Program-made: the position numbers and the translations under genes
Shown: piece after piece, positions 23,405 through 60,386 of the stretch
Layout: the number at the start of each line of letters is the position of its first letter
Numbering within the stretch: position 1 is the stretch's first letter
DNA from: Rhodovulum sp. 12E13
GTDB lineage: Bacteria > Pseudomonadota > Alphaproteobacteria > Rhodobacterales > Rhodobacteraceae
Assembly: GCF_003340565.1 (NCBI RefSeq)
Contig: NZ_QPLK01000008.1
Location: 124,001 to 188,000, forward strand
DNA: 64,000 nt
Direction of reading: 5' to 3'
Notes under the pieces: model-generated
What the model was told of the DNA's origin: nothing
What the model saw: only the letters and a program-made list of their open reading frames with translations
The model's database searches: none

Positions 23405-23451
23405 GCAAATCCCTTGAGAAAGGGATTTGCAAATCCGTTTCCAACGGATTT
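23405..23451. repeat. tandem palindrome pair (array locus 2)
   Basis: Two hairpin units abut: GCAAATCCCTT with its complement (23405-23430, four-base loop), then AAATCCGTT with its complement (23431-23451, three-base loop). Their junction GGATTTGCAAATCC is itself palindromic, so the arms could exchange. The array is followed by TCTCCCGCGC. It lies between the DUF2062 gene and the SDR start. Confidence 0.85.
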
Positions 23452-33355: not shown

Positions 33356-33392
33356 GCGAACGCCTGCGCAATTATCTTGCGCAGGCGTTCGC
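33356..33392 (-). terminator. 16-bp hairpin between phaA and phaB
   Basis: A perfect stem (GCGAACGCCTGCGCAA and complement) with loop TTATC lies 14 bases after the phaA stop. On the minus strand it is followed by GTTTCTATAG. It may be a partial terminator or a 3' stabiliser that lowers phaB relative to phaA. A competing shorter pairing (CGCGTT with AACGCG) lies on its promoter-distal side. Confidence 0.75.
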
Positions 33393-39449: not shown

Positions 39450-39528
39450 AGGCCCGCCCGCCGCCCGGGCCGGGGCGCGCAAGGGTGGGCGGGTGGGGCG
39501 CGGCCCGGCCCGGGCGGCGGGCGGGCCT
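39450..39528. repeat. perfect 23-bp stem with G-quadruplex-type loop (family copy 1)
   Basis: The arms 39450-39472 and 39506-39528 are perfectly complementary (left arm begins AGGCCCGCCCGCC). Inside is a second 5-bp stem, then a terminal loop carrying GGGTGGGCGGGTGGGG (39483-39498). The right arm ends on the first base of the smc stop codon. The minus-strand RNA would show CCCACCCGCCCACCC at the tip. Sister elements are at 43549-43641 and 59637-59699. Confidence 0.9.
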
Positions 39529-42500
39529 CAGGCGACCATCTGCTCGGCGCGTTTCAGGTCGACCGACACGAGCTGGCTCACCCCCTGCTCCTGCATCGTC
39601 ACGCCGAAGAGGCGATCCATCCGGCTCATCGTGATCGCATGGTGGGTGATGATCAGGAAGCGCGTCTCGGTCCGCCGCGTCATCTCGTCGAGCAGGTCGC
39701 AGAACCGCGTCACGTTGGCGTCGTCGAGCGGCGCGTCGACCTCGTCGAGCACGCAGATCGGCGCGGGGTTGGCGAGGAACACGGCGAAGATCAGCGCCAG
39801 CGCCGTCAGTGTCTGCTCGCCCCCCGACAGGAGCGACAGCGACGACAGCTTCTTGCCCGGCGGCTGGCACATGATCTCGAGGCCCGCCTCGAGCGGGTCG
39901 TCGCTTTCCACCAGTTCCAGCCGGGCCGAGCCGCCGCCGAAGAGATGCGTGAACAGGTGGCGGAAATTCTCGTCGACCTGCTCGAAGGCGGTGAGCAGCC
40001 GCTCGCGCCCCTCGCGATTGAGGCTGGCGATGCCGGATCGCAGGGCGCGGATCGCCTCTTCCAGATCGGCCTTCTCGGCGGCGAGCGAGTCGCGCTCGGC
40101 CTCGACCTCGCGTGCGTCTTCCTCGGCGCGCAGGTTCACCGCGCCCAGCGCGTCGCGGGCGCGTCGCAGGCGCAGGATCTCGGCCTCGATCGCGTGGGTG
40201 TCGGGCAGCTGTTCGGGATCGGCGTCGAGCGTCTCGAGCAGCGCCTCGGGCGTTGTCTCGAGCTCCTCCCGGATCGCATCGGCAGCGGCCGCCAGCGCAG
40301 CCTCGGCCGCCTCGGCGCGGGCCTGGGCGGCCGCGCGCCCCTCGCGCGCCTCGCCCGCCGCACGCTCGGTCTCGCGCGCGGCGCGCTCGGCCTCTCGGAA
40401 CGCCGTCTCGCCGGCGGCGCGTGCATCTGCCGCCGTCTGTCGCCGCGCCTCGGCCTTGTCGATCTCGTCCGCAAGCCGCTCCAGCCGCTCTTCGATGGCG
40501 GCGGGGCGATCGCGCGCCTCGCGCAGCTCGTCCTCGGCCTGCGCCTCGCGGCGGGCGAAATCGGCGGCGCGCGTCTCGGCGTTCGACAGCCGCTCGCGCC
40601 ATTTGTCGATCTCGCGCCCAACCTCGGCCCGGCGGCGGGCGCGGGCCTCGCCCGTGCGCCGGATCTCTTCCTCGGCGGCGCGGGCGGCGACCATGTCGGC
40701 GCGGCATCCCTCGGCCGCCGCGCGCGCGTCCTCCGCCCGGGCGCGGGCCGCCCCCAGATCGGGGAGCTCTGCGCGGGCGGCCTCTGCCTCGGCCAGGCGT
40801 TCGGCGGCCTCCTCGGCCTCCTGCGCGTGGCGCGCGGTGGCGAGTTCGGCCGCCACGAGCTTCGTCTCGGCCATCGCGCGGGCGTTCTCGGCACGCGACA
40901 GCGCGCGCGAGGCGTCGGCCGCGCGTGCATCGGCCGCGCGGCGGGCCTCTCTCGCGGCCCGGTCGGCCTCGCCCGCCGCCGCGAGGGCCTGCGCGGCCTC
41001 TGCGTGGGCTGCCTCGGTCTCGGCCGCGCGCCCCTCGGCCGCGTCCAGATCGGCCCGCAGAGCGGCGAGCCGGTTGACCTGCTGGAGCCGGAGCGCCGCA
41101 GCCGTCGGCGCATCCTCGGCCGCGGCGCGGAACCCGTCCCACCGCCACAGGTCGCCCTCGCGGCTGACCAGCCTCTGGCCCGGCTTCAGCATGGGCTGCA
41201 GGCGCGCGCCGTCGTCGCACCTGACCAGCCCCACTTCGCCGATGCGGCGCAGCAGAACGTCGGGCACGTCGACATGGGCGGCAAGCGGCTCGGCGCCAGC
41301 GGGCAGCCCCTGCGGCGCGTCATAGGGCGGCAGGCCCGCCCAGCCCGAGCCGCCTTCGCCTGCGATCGGCGCGCGGAGATCGTCGGCGAGCGCCGCGCCC
41401 AGCGCCTGCTCGAAGCCCGGTGCGACCGTCACCGAATCGATCACCTGCGCGCCGTCCGAGGCCTCGCGCTCCACGAGCCGGGCCAGGGCTCCCGCCTCGG
41501 CGCGAATCGCCTGCGCCTCGCCCTCGGCGGCGGCATGGGCGGCGCGGGCCTCGGCCTCGCGCGCCGCGGCCTCCGCGCGGGCGGCGTCGGCCTCGGCCAG
41601 CCGCTCCTCTGCCGCCTCGGCCTGCGCCTGCGCCTCGTCCTGCCCGGCGGTCGCCTGCTCCGCCGCCTCCGCCGCCGAGTCGAGCGCGCGCCTTGCGTCC
41701 TCGCCAACGCCGCGCGCCCGGGCCGCCTCTCCGCGCGCCTTCTCGAGCGCCGCCCGGGCGTCGGACTCGGCCCGCTCGGCATTCTGATGCCAGGCGGCGA
41801 GGCGCGCGGCATCCTCGGTCTCGCGGCCCAGATCGGCCTCGCGGGCCGAGAGGTTCGCCGCCGCGATGCGCGCCGCCTCGGCCGCCGCCTCGGCCTTGTC
41901 CTCGTGGCCCTCGAGCGCCGCGTCGAGCTCTTCCCCCTCGGCCAGAAGCCGCTCGAGGCTCTCGCCCGCGTCGCGGTTGAGCCCCGCTTCGCGCTCGCGG
42001 TCATGCGCGAGCTGCGCGACTCGCTTTTCCAGCGCCGCGATGGCCGCCTCGGCGCGGCGCGCCTCGCCCTGCTGATCCTTGCGCTCGACCTCGAGGCGCT
42101 GCAGCACTGCGGCGGCGATCGCCTCCTCCTCGCGCAGCGCCGGCATCCGCCCGTCGGCCTCTTCCCGCGCCGCCTCGGCGGCGCGCGCGGCGCGCTCCGC
42201 CTCGGAGGCCCGGCGCACCAGATCGGCCAGCTCGGCCGCCGTTGTCGTCACCGCGTCGCGCGCCTCGGCCCAGCGGCGGTAGAGCAGCAGGCCCTCGGCC
42301 CGCCGCAGGTCGCCCCCGATGGCGCGGTAACGCTGCGCCTGCTTCGCCTGACGGGCCAGAGCCGCGAGCTGCGCGTTGAGCGAATCGAGCAGGTCGTCGA
42401 CGCGCGAGAGGTTCTGCTCGGCCCCGTTCAGCTTGAGCTCGGCCTCGTGGCGCCGGGCATAGAGGCCCGAGATGCCCGCCGCCTCCTCCAGGATGCGGCG

Positions 42501-42980
42501 GCGCGACTTCGGCTTGGCGTTGATCAACTCCGAGATCTGGCCCTGCCGCACCAGCGCCGGCGAATGCGCCCCCGTCGAGGCGTCGGCGAAGAGCATCTGC
42601 ACGTCGCGCGCCCGCACGTCGCGTGCGTTGGCCTTGTAGGCGCTGCCCGCGTCGCGGGTGATCCGGCGGACGATCTCGATCTGGTCGGCGTCGTTGAAGC
42701 CCTGCGGCGCGCGCCGCTCGGCGTTGTCGATGATCAGCGACACCTCGGCAAAGTTGCGCGCGGGCCGGCGGCCGGAGCCGGCGAAGATCACGTCTTCCAT
42801 GCCGCCGCCGCGCATGGCGGTGGGCCGGTTCTCGCCCATCACCCAGCGCAGCGCCTCCAGCAGGTTCGACTTGCCGCAGCCGTTGGGGCCGACCACGCCC
42901 GTCAGACCCTCGGCGATCACGAGGTCGGTGGGATCGACGAAGCTCTTGAAGCCGTTCAGCCGAAGCCGCGTGAAGCGCAT
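39528..42980 (-). CDS. smc: chromosome segregation ATPase SMC
   Basis: A 1150-residue SMC protein that condenses and organises the chromosome. The N-terminal head has GPNGCGKSNLLEALRW (Walker A near 32-40). Long Ala/Glu/Arg-rich coiled coils run about 165-490 and 650-970 around a hinge near 500-640. The C-terminal head holds SLLSGGEQTLTALALIFA and the Walker B CVLDEVDAPLDDAN. ATG 42980 begins MRFTRLRLNGFKSF, the canonical N-terminus; the very long upstream frame is a shadow. ScpA/ScpB are not in this window. Confidence 0.97.
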   Translation of the reverse strand: MRFTRLRLNGFKSFVDPTDLVIAEGLTGVVGPNGCGKSNLLEALRWVMGENRPTAMRGGGMEDVIFAGSGRRPARNFAEVSLIIDNAERRAPQGFNDADQIEIVRRITRDAGSAYKANARDVRARDVQMLFADASTGAHSPALVRQGQISELINAKPKSRRRILEEAAGISGLYARRHEAELKLNGAEQNLSRVDDLLDSLNAQLAALARQAKQAQRYRAIGGDLRRAEGLLLYRRWAEARDAVTTTAAELADLVRRASEAERAARAAEAAREEADGRMPALREEEAIAAAVLQRLEVERKDQQGEARRAEAAIAALEKRVAQLAHDREREAGLNRDAGESLERLLAEGEELDAALEGHEDKAEAAAEAARIAAANLSAREADLGRETEDAARLAAWHQNAERAESDARAALEKARGEAARARGVGEDARRALDSAAEAAEQATAGQDEAQAQAEAAEERLAEADAARAEAAAREAEARAAHAAAEGEAQAIRAEAGALARLVEREASDGAQVIDSVTVAPGFEQALGAALADDLRAPIAGEGGSGWAGLPPYDAPQGLPAGAEPLAAHVDVPDVLLRRIGEVGLVRCDDGARLQPMLKPGQRLVSREGDLWRWDGFRAAAEDAPTAAALRLQQVNRLAALRADLDAAEGRAAETEAAHAEAAQALAAAGEADRAAREARRAADARAADASRALSRAENARAMAETKLVAAELATARHAQEAEEAAERLAEAEAARAELPDLGAARARAEDARAAAEGCRADMVAARAAEEEIRRTGEARARRRAEVGREIDKWRERLSNAETRAADFARREAQAEDELREARDRPAAIEERLERLADEIDKAEARRQTAADARAAGETAFREAERAARETERAAGEAREGRAAAQARAEAAEAALAAAADAIREELETTPEALLETLDADPEQLPDTHAIEAEILRLRRARDALGAVNLRAEEDAREVEAERDSLAAEKADLEEAIRALRSGIASLNREGRERLLTAFEQVDENFRHLFTHLFGGGSARLELVESDDPLEAGLEIMCQPPGKKLSSLSLLSGGEQTLTALALIFAVFLANPAPICVLDEVDAPLDDANVTRFCDLLDEMTRRTETRFLIITHHAITMSRMDRLFGVTMQEQGVSQLVSVDLKRAEQMVA

Positions 42981-43548: not shown

Positions 43549-43641
43549 GCCCTCGCCCGGGCGGCCCGCGCCGCGCGGGCGGCGCGCGGGTGGGCGGGTG
43601 GGGCGCGTCGGCCGCGCGGCGCGGGCCGCCCGGGCGAGGGC
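43549..43641. repeat. perfect 30-bp stem with G-quadruplex-type loop (family copy 2)
   Basis: The arms 43549-43578 and 43612-43641 pair without mismatch (left arm begins GCCTCGCCCGGGCGG). The 33-base interior repeats the copy-1 design: a 5-bp inner stem and a tip carrying GGGTGGGCGGGTGGG. The element lies four bases downstream of the stop of the minus-strand acyltransferase gene. The stem sequence is unrelated to copies 1 and 3. Confidence 0.9.
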
Positions 43642-43645
43642 CCGG

Positions 43646-44533
43646 TCAGGCCCCGCGCAGCCCCAGCGTGCGCTCGCGTAGCCACGCGACGAAGCCGCGC
43701 GGGTTCTGCGCCCAGGCCTCGACCTCGCCGCGCTCGATCGCGGGGCCCACGACGGGCGCCTGCGGCCGGTTCAGCGCGTGGACCACCTCGTAGAGCAGCA
43801 GCCCCTGCCGCAGCGTCGACGACACGCGGTTGGCCATCTGGTACCAGCGCGAATTCTGGCCGGGGAAGTAGACGGGCACCACCCGCGCGCCCGAGCGCTG
43901 GATCATCTTGGCGGTGAAGGGGTTCCACTCGCGCTCGACGGCCGCGCCGAACATCGTCTCCGACGCCGCCACCACGCCCGAGGGGAACAGCACGATGGCG
44001 CCGCCCTCGCGCAGATGATCCATCGCGCGCTTGCGCATCTCGAGGTTCTGCTGCAGCGCGTCTTCCTCGTGGGCGAAGGGCACCGGGATCATGAAGCGGT
44101 CGATCTCGGCCACCCCCGTCAGGAGCGAGCGGGTCAGGATCTTGTAATCCTGCCGCACCCGGCCCACCAGCTCGGCCAGCACCATCCCGTCGACCAGACC
44201 GTGCGGGTGGTTGGCGACCACGACCAGCGGCCCGCGTTCGGGGATGCGCGCGATCTGCTCGGGCGGGGTGTGAAGCTCGACTCCCATGACGTCGAGCGCC
44301 TGCTTCCAGAAGGCCTGGCCCTCGGGCACCCCCATCGCCTCGAATTTCCGGATCAGCCGCAGCAGCCGCATCTTGCCGGTGAGAAGCTCCATCGTCTGGA
44401 TGGTCCGCACCTGCCACGGATTGGTGAAGGTATGCGCGTAGGACAGCCGCCGGCGGTCGTAGGGCCTGTCCTTCAGGGTCGTGCCGTCGCCCTGCCCCTT
44501 CAGGGGCGCGGTCGACGCGCCATGCATCATCAT
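43646..44533 (-). CDS. PlsC-family lysophospholipid acyltransferase
   Basis: A 295-residue 1-acyl-glycerol-phosphate acyltransferase-like protein. The catalytic block is VVVANHPHGLVDGMVLAELVG, an NHPxGxxD variant of NHxxxxD. The substrate block IVLFPSGVVAASE replaces the usual FPEGTRS. Members are annotated as hemolysin-like acyltransferases; some make ornithine lipids. Three ATGs stand in a row at 44533-44525; GAGGG precedes them, so any could initiate. HPr is the upstream gene on the same strand. Confidence 0.82.
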   Translation of the reverse strand: MMMHGASTAPLKGQGDGTTLKDRPYDRRRLSYAHTFTNPWQVRTIQTMELLTGKMRLLRLIRKFEAMGVPEGQAFWKQALDVMGVELHTPPEQIARIPERGPLVVVANHPHGLVDGMVLAELVGRVRQDYKILTRSLLTGVAEIDRFMIPVPFAHEEDALQQNLEMRKRAMDHLREGGAIVLFPSGVVAASETMFGAAVEREWNPFTAKMIQRSGARVVPVYFPGQNSRWYQMANRVSSTLRQGLLLYEVVHALNRPQAPVVGPAIERGEVEAWAQNPRGFVAWLRERTLGLRGA

Positions 44534-58659: not shown

Positions 58660-59568
58660 TCACCCCTCGCCATCTCGGAAATCGAGCCCCATCTCGGAAT
58701 AGCGCTCGGCCTCGTCCAGCCAGCCGGGGCGCACCTTGACCTGGGTGAAGAGGTGCACCTTGCGGCCCAGAAACTCCTCGAGCTCCGCCCGGGCCGCCTG
58801 CCCGACCGCCTTGAGCGTCGCGCCGCCCTTGCCGAGCACGATCCCCTTGTGGCCGTCGCGGGCGACGTAGATCAGCTGGTCGATGCGGGTCGAGCCGTCC
58901 TTGCGATCCTCCCAGTTCTCGGTCTCGACCGTGAGCTGGTAGGGCAGCTCCTCGTGCAGGCGGAGGGTCAGCTTCTCGCGGGTGATCTCGGCGGCGATCA
59001 TGCGCAGGGGCAGGTCGGCGATCTGGTCCTCTGGGTAGAGCCAAGGGCCCTCGGGCATCTCGTCCGCGAGCCACCGGCGCAGGTCGTCCACGCCGTGGCC
59101 CCGGTCGGCCGAGATCATGAACGTGCGCACGAAATCGTGGGCCGCGTTCATCTCCTCGGCCAGCGACAGAAGCGCGGGCGGCTCCACCCGGTCGATCTTG
59201 TTGATGGCGAGCGCCACGGGGCGCCCCCTGGCCTGAGTGGCGAGCGCGTCGAGGATGGCGCGCACGCCCTCTGTCAGCCCGCGATGGGCCTCGACCAGAA
59301 GCACGACCATGTCGGCATCCGCCGCGCCGCCCCAGGCGGCGGCGACCATCGCCCGGTCGAGCCGGCGGCGGGGACGGAACAGTCCCGGCGTGTCGACGAA
59401 GACGAGCTGCGCGTCGCCCTCGATCGCGACGCCGCGAATGCGGGCGCGCGTCGTCTGCACCTTGTGGGTGACGATCGACACCTTGGCGCCGACCATCCGG
59501 TTGAGCAGCGTCGATTTGCCGGCGTTCGGCTCGCCGATGAGCGCGACGAAGCCGCAGCGTGTGGTCAT
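58660..59568 (-). CDS. era: GTPase Era
   Basis: A 302-residue essential GTPase that binds the 3' end of 16S rRNA in 30S maturation. It has G1 GEPNAGKSTLLN, G2 VQTTRARIRG, G3 VDTPGLF and G4 NKID, and a C-terminal KH domain with GKGGATLKAVGQ. ATG 59568 follows CGGAGGTGCCCC; longer frames cross the hairpin at 59637. It is separated from rnc by that perfect hairpin, which is unusual because the two are normally close-coupled. Confidence 0.96.
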   Translation of the reverse strand: MTTRCGFVALIGEPNAGKSTLLNRMVGAKVSIVTHKVQTTRARIRGVAIEGDAQLVFVDTPGLFRPRRRLDRAMVAAAWGGAADADMVVLLVEAHRGLTEGVRAILDALATQARGRPVALAINKIDRVEPPALLSLAEEMNAAHDFVRTFMISADRGHGVDDLRRWLADEMPEGPWLYPEDQIADLPLRMIAAEITREKLTLRLHEELPYQLTVETENWEDRKDGSTRIDQLIYVARDGHKGIVLGKGGATLKAVGQAARAELEEFLGRKVHLFTQVKVRPGWLDEAERYSEMGLDFRDGEG

Positions 59569-59636: not shown

Positions 59637-59699
59637 GGCCGGGCGGCGGCTGGCGGGCGGGGGTGGGCGGGTGGGTCGGCCGCCAGCCGCCGCCCGGCC
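59637..59699. repeat. perfect 20-bp stem with G-quadruplex-type loop (family copy 3)
   Basis: The arms 59637-59656 and 59680-59699 pair perfectly (left arm begins GGCCGGGCGGCGG). The 23-base loop holds GGGTGGGCGGGTGGG (59661-59675), the same 15 bases as copies 1 and 2, but without an inner stem. It abuts the rnc stop codon and precedes era. Double-stranded RNA of this length is a potential substrate for the RNase III encoded just upstream. Confidence 0.9.
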
Positions 59700-60386
59700 T
59701 CAGCCGCCCCGCTCGACCTCGGCCAGCAGGGCCTGCGCGGCCGCCTGTTCGGCGGCGCGCTTTGAGGGCGCGCGGGCCTCGGCGGCCGCCCCGCTCTCCA
59801 GCCGGGCGCGGATGGTGAATTCGGGCGCATGGTCGGGGCCGGAGCGGGCGACCTGCTCGTAGGCGGGCGGTTTCATGCCCCGCGCCTGCGCCCATTCCTG
59901 CAGCGCCGTCTTGGGGTCGCGCGCATCCTCGGCCACGCGGCCCACGCGGTCGCCCCAGAGGCGCAGCACAAGCGCGCGGGCGGCGTTGAACCCCGCGTCG
60001 AGGTAGACCGCGGCGATCACGGCCTCCATGCCATCGGCCAGCAGGGCCGCCTTGCGCCGCCCGCCGGTCATGGTCTCCGATCGGCCGAGCTTGAGCACGT
60101 CGCCCAGCCCGATCTCGCCCGCCACCTCGGCGCAGGTCTCGCGCCGCACCAGCGCGTTGTAGCGGGGAGCGAGCTGGCCTTCCTTCGCGTCGGCATCGGC
60201 CGCCAGCAGCGCCTCGGCCATGACGAGGCCCAGCACCCGGTCGCCGAGGAACTCCAGCCGCTGATTGTCGGGGCGGCTATCGGACGAGAGCGAGGAATGG
60301 GTCAGCGCCCGCACCAGCAGCTCCGGCCGGGCGAACGCGTGGCCCAGCCGGTGCTGGAAGTCGCGCAAGTCGGCCGAAAGCTTCAT
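59700..60386 (-). CDS. rnc: ribonuclease III
   Basis: A 228-residue endonuclease for double-stranded RNA. The catalytic signature is [16 protein letters not shown], the second acidic site is in [15 protein letters not shown], and the C-terminal dsRNA-binding domain is at about 155-226. It starts at ATG 60386, overlapping the lepB stop (ATGA). It is followed at once by a perfect 20-bp hairpin. Confidence 0.96.

Follow-up and report, generated by a model that had tools for sequence, protein, structure and literature searches.

Dispersed hairpins with a four-tract quadruplex-type tip in Rhodobacteraceae as putative strand-polar barriers at gene ends

Several described systems share features with the hairpins reported here. 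Rho-independent (intrinsic) terminators likewise consist of a GC-rich hairpin just behind stop codons, with a free stem sequence, and are followed directly by a U-tract. REP/BIME palindromes, which are linked to RAYT transposases, are dispersed, extragenic and often located 3' of genes, and their palindrome is conserved. In Rhodobacteraceae, the family considered here, the CcsR/cuckoo RNAs expose C-rich loops with the motif CCUCCUCCC on stem-loops behind genes. KOPS are G-rich, replication-polar octamers (GGGNAGGG) on the leading strand. Finally, GGG runs separated by one-base spacers characterise the most stable parallel quadruplexes, and quadruplex folding is established for such sequences in general. 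The bacterial quadruplexes catalogued in Quadrupia also have four G runs and short loops, and are reported there to prefer the leading strand (PMC12581993). In our view, a good deal of the evidence on bacterial quadruplexes is motif counting.

We analysed a 64,000-nt stretch of Rhodovulum sp. 12E13 (the window; this genome is G000, other G numbers denote compared genomes and L numbers loci). The 15-mer GGGTGGGCGGGTGGG occurs three times in it as an exact copy, each time at the tip of a hairpin (Table 1), and the three tip-bearing hairpins are the longest perfect hairpins in the window. A preliminary description had reported the same 15-base tip at these sites, a few bases after minus-strand stop codons, and both statements were borne out: the stem-to-stop distance is 0–4 nt at all three copies. 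The smc-side stem (39450–39528) is perfect as described, over 25 bp rather than 23, and overlaps the smc stop codon by one base. Since the adjoining genes all read on the minus strand, their mRNAs would carry the C-rich loop. The rnc copy sits between rnc and a codirectional era-like gene and thus cannot be assumed to end every transcript. Tip matches with up to three mismatches numbered 15 in the window against a shuffle mean of 10, which is not unusual, so that loose matches carry no signal. Two other perfect hairpins, at 33356–33392 (16 bp, loop TTATC) and 23405–23430 (11 bp, loop GAGA), have an ordinary terminator-like shape.

Table 1 Tip-bearing hairpins of the window and the genes beside them
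Feature	Position	Strand	Remarks
Left arm, smc-side hairpin	39450–39474		25-bp perfect stem
Four-GGG tip GGGTGGGCGGGTGGG, smc-side hairpin	39483–39497	+	G-rich strand on plus
Right arm, smc-side hairpin	39504–39528		last base is first base of smc stop codon in plus reading
smc	39528–42980	-	SMC_N, Pfam PF02463; gene end at hairpin
Left arm, second hairpin	43549–43578		30-bp perfect stem; whole hairpin 43549–43641
Four-GGG tip, second hairpin	43588–43602	+
Right arm, second hairpin	43612–43641		4 nt from gene end at 43646
Acyltransferase-family (plsC-like) gene	43646–44533	-	Pfam; end at second hairpin
Left arm, third hairpin	59637–59656		20-bp perfect stem; whole hairpin 59637–59699
Four-GGG tip, third hairpin	59661–59675	+
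Right arm, third hairpin	59680–59699		adjoins rnc gene end
rnc, RNase III	59700–60386	-	PF14622/PF00636 plus dsrm; end at third hairpin
era-like gene	58660–59568		MMR_HSR1 GTPase plus KH_2; next downstream of rnc, codirectional

The elements depart from each of the described systems. Compared with intrinsic terminators, they lack the U-tract, carry a conserved four-GGG loop on long stems and, in four genomes, have a loop strand that follows replication. Unlike REP/BIME, their stem is not conserved in most genomes and the conserved part is the loop; a conserved palindrome was found neither in G000 nor across genera and only in part in G037, where copies are paired with a second hairpin. A Y1 transposase (RAYT, PF01797) was found in none of seven genomes, and a REP/RAYT mobile element was rejected on this ground. 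In transcripts the loops read CCCnCCCnCCCnCCC, with four CCC runs and single-base spacers, and do not contain the CcsR motif CCUCCUCCC. Unlike KOPS-like motifs, the elements are hairpin-borne and far fewer in number; wherever the strand is callable in the four polar genomes, most of them occupy the other strand from GGGNAGGG. Against the leading-strand preference reported in Quadrupia (PMC12581993), they are found on the lagging strand and are borne by palindromic stems. Ordinary terminator palindromes within a species are reported to vary more in their spacers and less in their arms (PMC13155455), which is the reverse of what the elements do.

Rfam gave no match at gathering cut-offs in the window and only sub-threshold matches for six loci at E values up to 1; sub-cut-off matches such as MIR8670 in L126 were taken for hairpin noise, and a known RNA family was rejected on these results. 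Neither the literal 15-mer nor any description of the element was found in the literature searched, subscription journals being mostly outside it. The shared orientation of most tips relative to replication in four of five genomes suggests that the quadruplex-tipped hairpins are an unrecognised structural DNA element.

Four GGG tracts on stems of free sequence

The G000 genome has nine exact copies of the 15-mer, all on perfect stems of 10–30 bp, and the unrelatedness of stem sequences claimed for the window copies holds for all nine. Allowing up to two mismatches yielded 72 places: all four GGG runs are intact at 19 of them, a run is broken at 48, and five resemble poly-G. The sequence was examined for 48 of these 72 places (all 19 intact, 27 of the 48 broken and two poly-G). 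A stem of at least 9 bp was present at 18 of the 19 intact motifs, the exception being the stemless L173, versus only one of the 27 broken-run near-matches (Fisher p = 1e-10); that single place, L056, looks like a decayed member. Neither of the two poly-G like places was on a stem, and stems of this length occurred at 5 of 3000 random positions. Spacer length is strict as well. In 853 kb of G000 and G037, one-base-spacer motifs were on stems in 24 of 30 cases and motifs with a 2–3 nt spacer in 0 of 7. The on-stem spacers are T or C, with A in 3 of 327, and their length is always one base. Conversely, 18 of 32 perfect stems of at least 12 bp in the G037 blocks bear a four-GGG tip.

Because the GGG runs are kept while the one-base spacers vary, the constraint is quadruplex-like, with four runs of at least three G, short spacers, conserved runs and variable spacers. 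Judged from the letters, the kept feature is the four-tract, short-loop quadruplex pattern together with stem pairing. The preliminary description had called the loop invariant, which is true only of the exact copies, by construction; other copies vary at the spacers, and the smc copy of the sister species has one GGG run broken while the stem is kept. An invariant 15-mer as a sequence signal is ruled out by this variation. The preliminary proposal of selection on structure plus loop gains support from the contrasts of 18/19 with 1/27 and of 24/30 with 0/7, in the form of a quadruplex-type constraint rather than mere sequence. Evolution here provides a built-in test, with pairing kept, stem letters free and the tip at the four-tract threshold at tens of places per genome. 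We also considered a G-rich antisense sRNA that pairs with the C-rich loop; L173 is the only stemless motif among the 19 intact ones of the genome, so that there is no obvious partner, which is a weak argument. Poly-G tracts of about 20–30 bases occur in G000 at C40:242425-242444 and, on both strands, at C44:16195-16301 and are possibly assembly artefacts.

The exact 15-mer was found in 30 of 295 genomes of the same family, about one per genus. Among the first copies from the 29 genomes other than G000, 27 have a stem of at least 9 bp and the other two have stems of 8 and 5 bp. With any A/C/T spacers allowed, the motif turned up in 185 of 390 genomes taken from the order, each of them a member of the same family. 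A stem of at least 9 bp was present at just 9 of 29 first copies from this set, implying that the motif is something else in many low-copy genomes, and for 27 further copies from ten multi-copy genomes the figure was 20. In a sample of 240 genomes from the class, many of them small and three of the same family, the 15-mer was absent from the 237 other Alphaproteobacteria, and G000 was the only carrier. A 22-base core with flanking GCGC retrieved 16 stretches from an 84,980-species collection, eight from Rhodobacteraceae and eight from genera assigned by NCBI to Rhodobacterales (Roseobacteraceae or Paracoccaceae). A stem of at least 9 bp is present in 12 of the 16, and a contig end cuts one of the remaining four. 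G000, G018, G428 and G335 hold about 18–39 motifs each, and G037 has the most copies among the genomes looked at. The elements make up a family of extragenic DNA hairpins scattered over Rhodobacteraceae genomes, in which the stem sequence is free in most genomes and the pairing is kept.

Chance or an assembly artefact could be invoked since the genomes are G+C rich, loose tip matches are no commoner than in many shuffles and some copies lie at contig ends. We regard this as extremely improbable in view of the broken-run and random-position controls and because stem-borne copies, exact as well as variant, recur in independent genera and are also present on closed chromosomes.

A second arrangement was noticed at L131, L132, L138, L139, L147 and L148 and, in G335, near 2038500, 2435800 and 2691600. 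Here the four GGG tracts form one side of a G/C stem, with an A-run and a further hairpin next to it. In G335 this arrangement follows the same replication polarity as the main motifs. Loci of the L131/L138/L147 type were rejected as family members, because the G-rich run as a stem arm makes a different structure.

Position and orientation relative to genes and forks

Genes were called with home-made codon models, trained on G000 and G037 jointly and separately on G335, G018 and G428; calls in other genera use the G000 and G037 model and are less reliable. The position set comprised 153 distinct intact motifs, 109 with stems and 44 without. Only one of the 109 stem-bearing copies lay inside a predicted gene, compared with nine of the 44 stemless motifs. 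For 74 genes read towards the C-rich side, the median distance from stop to stem was 11.5 nt, extending the position after stop codons beyond the window. Of the 95 copies in convergent or codirectional gaps, 37 were in convergent ones, against 30% of gene ends, a mild excess.

The preliminary description had envisaged a terminator or roadblock. TTTT was found within 12 nt after the stem at 0 of 80 copies, five T in the first eight positions at 1 of 80, and TTTT within 15 nt at 1 of 65, so that the U-tract directly after the hairpin that defines an intrinsic terminator is lacking. This gives no support to a canonical terminator and leaves room for a roadblock or a terminator role. Canonical U-tract terminators are rare in G000 in any case (at 10 of the 323 operon-end type 3' ends that lack the motif), and the elements may bear on how gene ends are closed in such a lineage. 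In the G037 blocks, with convergent gaps counted from both genes, the motif is in the gap at 34 of 217 operon-end type ends and a canonical terminator at 15 of 217. The terminator was about equally frequent at ends with (3/34) and without (12/183) the motif, giving no sign that the element replaces terminators.

We then compared the orientation of the elements with replication, calling the leading strand from GC skew and counting stem-bearing motifs in the fetched regions. The G-rich strand was lagging rather than leading in ratios of 33:4 in G018, 20:1 in G428, 8:0 in G335 and 10:5 in G000, a pooled bias of 71:10 (p = 2e-12). The five exceptions in G000 lie on contigs C40 and C73, where skew and GGGNAGGG are near balance and the strand is therefore uncallable; without these two contigs the ratio is 71:5. 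The first regions of G018, G428 and G335 had been chosen because they bear motifs, and adding the left-out G018 places and five more G000 contigs changed G018 from 26/27 to 33/37 and brought G000 to 10:5. The octamer GGGNAGGG is itself strongly leading-biased (139:32 in G018, for example, where the strand had itself been called with this octamer and the call agreed with the skew); one region, G428 C1:142-161k, has its motifs lagging by skew and not by GGGNAGGG. The regions of G335, G018, G428, G000 and G037 suggest that this KOPS-like octamer could serve to mark the strand in the family.

The polarity depends on the number of tracts. In the first regions pooled, the lagging share was 42, 34 and 33% for one, two and three GGG tracts and 97% (59/61) for four tracts on a stem. 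The leading bias of one to three tracts, as predicted by GC skew, serves as an internal control from the same regions. Four-tract motifs without a detected stem were also lagging (20/23), indicating that the polarity belongs to the four-tract motif and not to the stem alone. G335 has a closed chromosome with 18 four-tract motifs, roughly half of which have stems; the strand of all 18 changes at dnaA, as it does for 7/7 in G403 and 6/6 in G296 of the same genus, where four-tract motifs were counted irrespective of stems. The gene failed as a general origin marker, since on G018 C4 and G000 C106 both elements and skew keep one sign on either side of dnaA; 16S, found in only one of seven genomes, was of no use as a strand marker. 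The lagging-strand placement in four of five genomes is new and unexpected, and opposite to the published bacterial quadruplex bias (PMC12581993). The strand polarity, with its change of sign between three and four tracts, allows one to ask directly whether quadruplexes fold in living bacterial DNA and which process, the fork or RNA polymerase, selects on them.

Relative to transcription, the picture differs between genomes. G037 shows no replication polarity (13:12 by strand), and in its codirectional gene pairs the C-rich loop is in the mRNA in 9 of 10 cases; in a mixture of other genera the count is 27 of 32. Overall, codirectional pairs have the C-rich loop in the mRNA ('<<') in 48 cases versus 10 with the opposite orientation ('>>'), and in 31 of 37 convergent gaps the element lies closer to the gene end on its C side. 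The ratio of C-rich to G-rich in the mRNA is, however, 11:8, 10:6 and 2:4 in G018, G428 and G335, respectively, near symmetry ('<<' 23, '>>' 18) at a nearly constant replication strand. This rules out transcript-sense orientation as a universal rule, despite the 48:10 total, and the earlier suggestion of a site read as CCCACCCGCCCACCC in the transcript gains no support as a general rule. Four '>>' copies in G335 are closer to the next start (38–86 nt) than to the last stop (78–220 nt).

The same counts bear on an RNA element, that is, a transcript hairpin whose C-rich loop is bound by a protein or Rho or which protects mRNA 3' ends. The orientation in G037 and in the mixed genera is what such an element would show. 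We nevertheless judge it quite unlikely, given the near symmetry in G018, G428 and G335, the strict one-base spacing without base identity and the lack of an Rfam match at gathering cut-offs in the window.

A replication element would fit better with G018, G428 and G335, where replication polarity exceeds transcription polarity. The C-rich-loop hairpin, exposed on the lagging template, might be a single-strand site for primase or a restart factor; alternatively, the quadruplex might act from the leading template as a programmed and polar pause site for the fork. Gene ends would then be merely the places where the element can be accommodated. The sharp switch between three and four tracts, the reversal at dnaA in G335, G403 and G296, and a polarity opposite in sign to the general bacterial bias (PMC12581993) all argue in its favour. 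The absence of polarity in G037, the richest in copies, the sparseness of the motifs in G000, G018, G428 and G335 and the failure to find a partner protein, in a search limited to Y1 transposases, make it unlikely all the same. In a related reading, which is possible although we lean against it, quadruplex-capped hairpins with free stems would sit on the leading-strand template as a replication-polar class that marks or protects gene ends where replication meets transcription, the fork dictating orientation and the gene only secondarily.

Gene-end barriers and turnover

The reading we prefer, tentatively and at a probability of roughly 0.38, is that the elements are DNA-level, strand-polar quadruplex hairpins that act as putative barriers closing gene ends. 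The DNA level is indicated by the tract threshold and the strand polarity. The palindrome would let the G-rich strand form a quadruplex-capped hairpin in vivo, which, together with the RNA hairpin, could be a barrier to RNA polymerase at the gene end without the need for a U-tract; for genes with the C-rich loop in the mRNA, the quadruplex would be on the template strand. The G-rich strand may be harmful when exposed single-stranded, as lagging-strand template or as displaced non-template strand, and we propose that copies persist in the orientation in which this strand stays hidden. Such a limit on orientation would make four genomes polar with respect to replication and the fifth with respect to transcription.

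Published experiments include both favourable and unfavourable precedents. In E. coli, having the G-rich strand of (G3T)8 as non-template increases its mutability about 350-fold, and deletions become 20–1000 times more frequent when a hairpin lies in the lagging template (PMC7023247). T7 RNA polymerase has a larger output when the non-template rather than the template strand bears the motif (PMC7341879). The leading/lagging difference is small for quadruplex repeats alone (PMC7023247), which counts against the barrier explanation. So do several of our own results: many copies, the rnc-era one among them, are flanked by codirectional genes, G037 lacks replication polarity, the convergent excess is mild, there is no sign of terminator replacement and turnover is fast. 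The near-symmetric gene orientation and the '>>' copies of G335 nearer to the next start are likewise not predicted by a pure gene-end barrier.

Assembly breaks at the motifs are as expected of a polymerase-blocking structure. In the draft genome G253, 2 of 15 motifs lie within 32 nt of a contig end, where 0.05 would be expected. The hairpins at contig ends and an N gap hint at stalling of the sequencing polymerase. L062, L079 and L240 are at contig ends, and L252, from the sister species, has the N gap inside the tip.

Turnover was followed in the sister species, whose flanks are about 90% identical to those of G000, at 18 of the 19 intact sites. The tip is intact at eight, has one broken run at three and is lost at seven; among the eight, one is partly Ns, one is at a contig end and one is in a fold-back contig. 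At smc, where one GGG run is broken, pairing in the stem is preserved by a compensating change from C-G to G-C. The acyltransferase copy and L045 have one broken run and decayed stems, and the losses include the rnc copy; L004 keeps one arm, and L043 keeps a 12-bp stem with another loop. Of 55 genomes with an smc match, 30 gave loci, and by eye the smc hairpin is present only in Rhodovulum sp. 12E13 and its sister species, with none in the 28 relatives outside the genus, where L192 and L202 show C-rich remnants at most. Thus, individual sites gain or lose the element quickly, the pattern as a whole being maintained, and the quick loss between sister species means that no single copy looks essential.

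These changes could also come about with no function at gene ends. Neutral or mildly selfish palindromes would arise by replication errors or copying, be tolerated between genes and soon disappear, and their orientation would be survivorship, since any copy whose G-rich strand falls on the lagging template would be deleted. Fast gain and loss between the sister species, a clean 57-bp presence/absence at the L041 site and the deletion-prone lagging-template hairpins of E. coli (PMC7023247) accord with this. Copying does occur in G037, where many copies have a near-identical stem (AGCGCCCCCGAGGCGCG...; for example L061, L104, L105, L113 and L120) and abut a second hairpin, whose stem varies and whose loop is short, so that the pair resembles a two-hairpin unit. 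We hold the neutral explanation to be doubtful because stems that differ within most genomes stay perfectly paired, the smc orthologue carries its compensating change, nearly every stem of G000 has its GGG runs intact, the distance behind stop codons is tight and the Y1 transposase of the REP kind is missing from all seven genomes.

The birth of arms by fold-back was considered from L041 and L250; a deletion in the sister species explains the difference equally well, and two species do not suffice to polarise it. In the sister species, around position 1501 of L167, a gene end is repeated in inverted form over about 58 nt across the tip, as either a real fold-back or a chimeric contig. Short tandem repeats are also seen there, beside the element at L076 and in place of it at L248.
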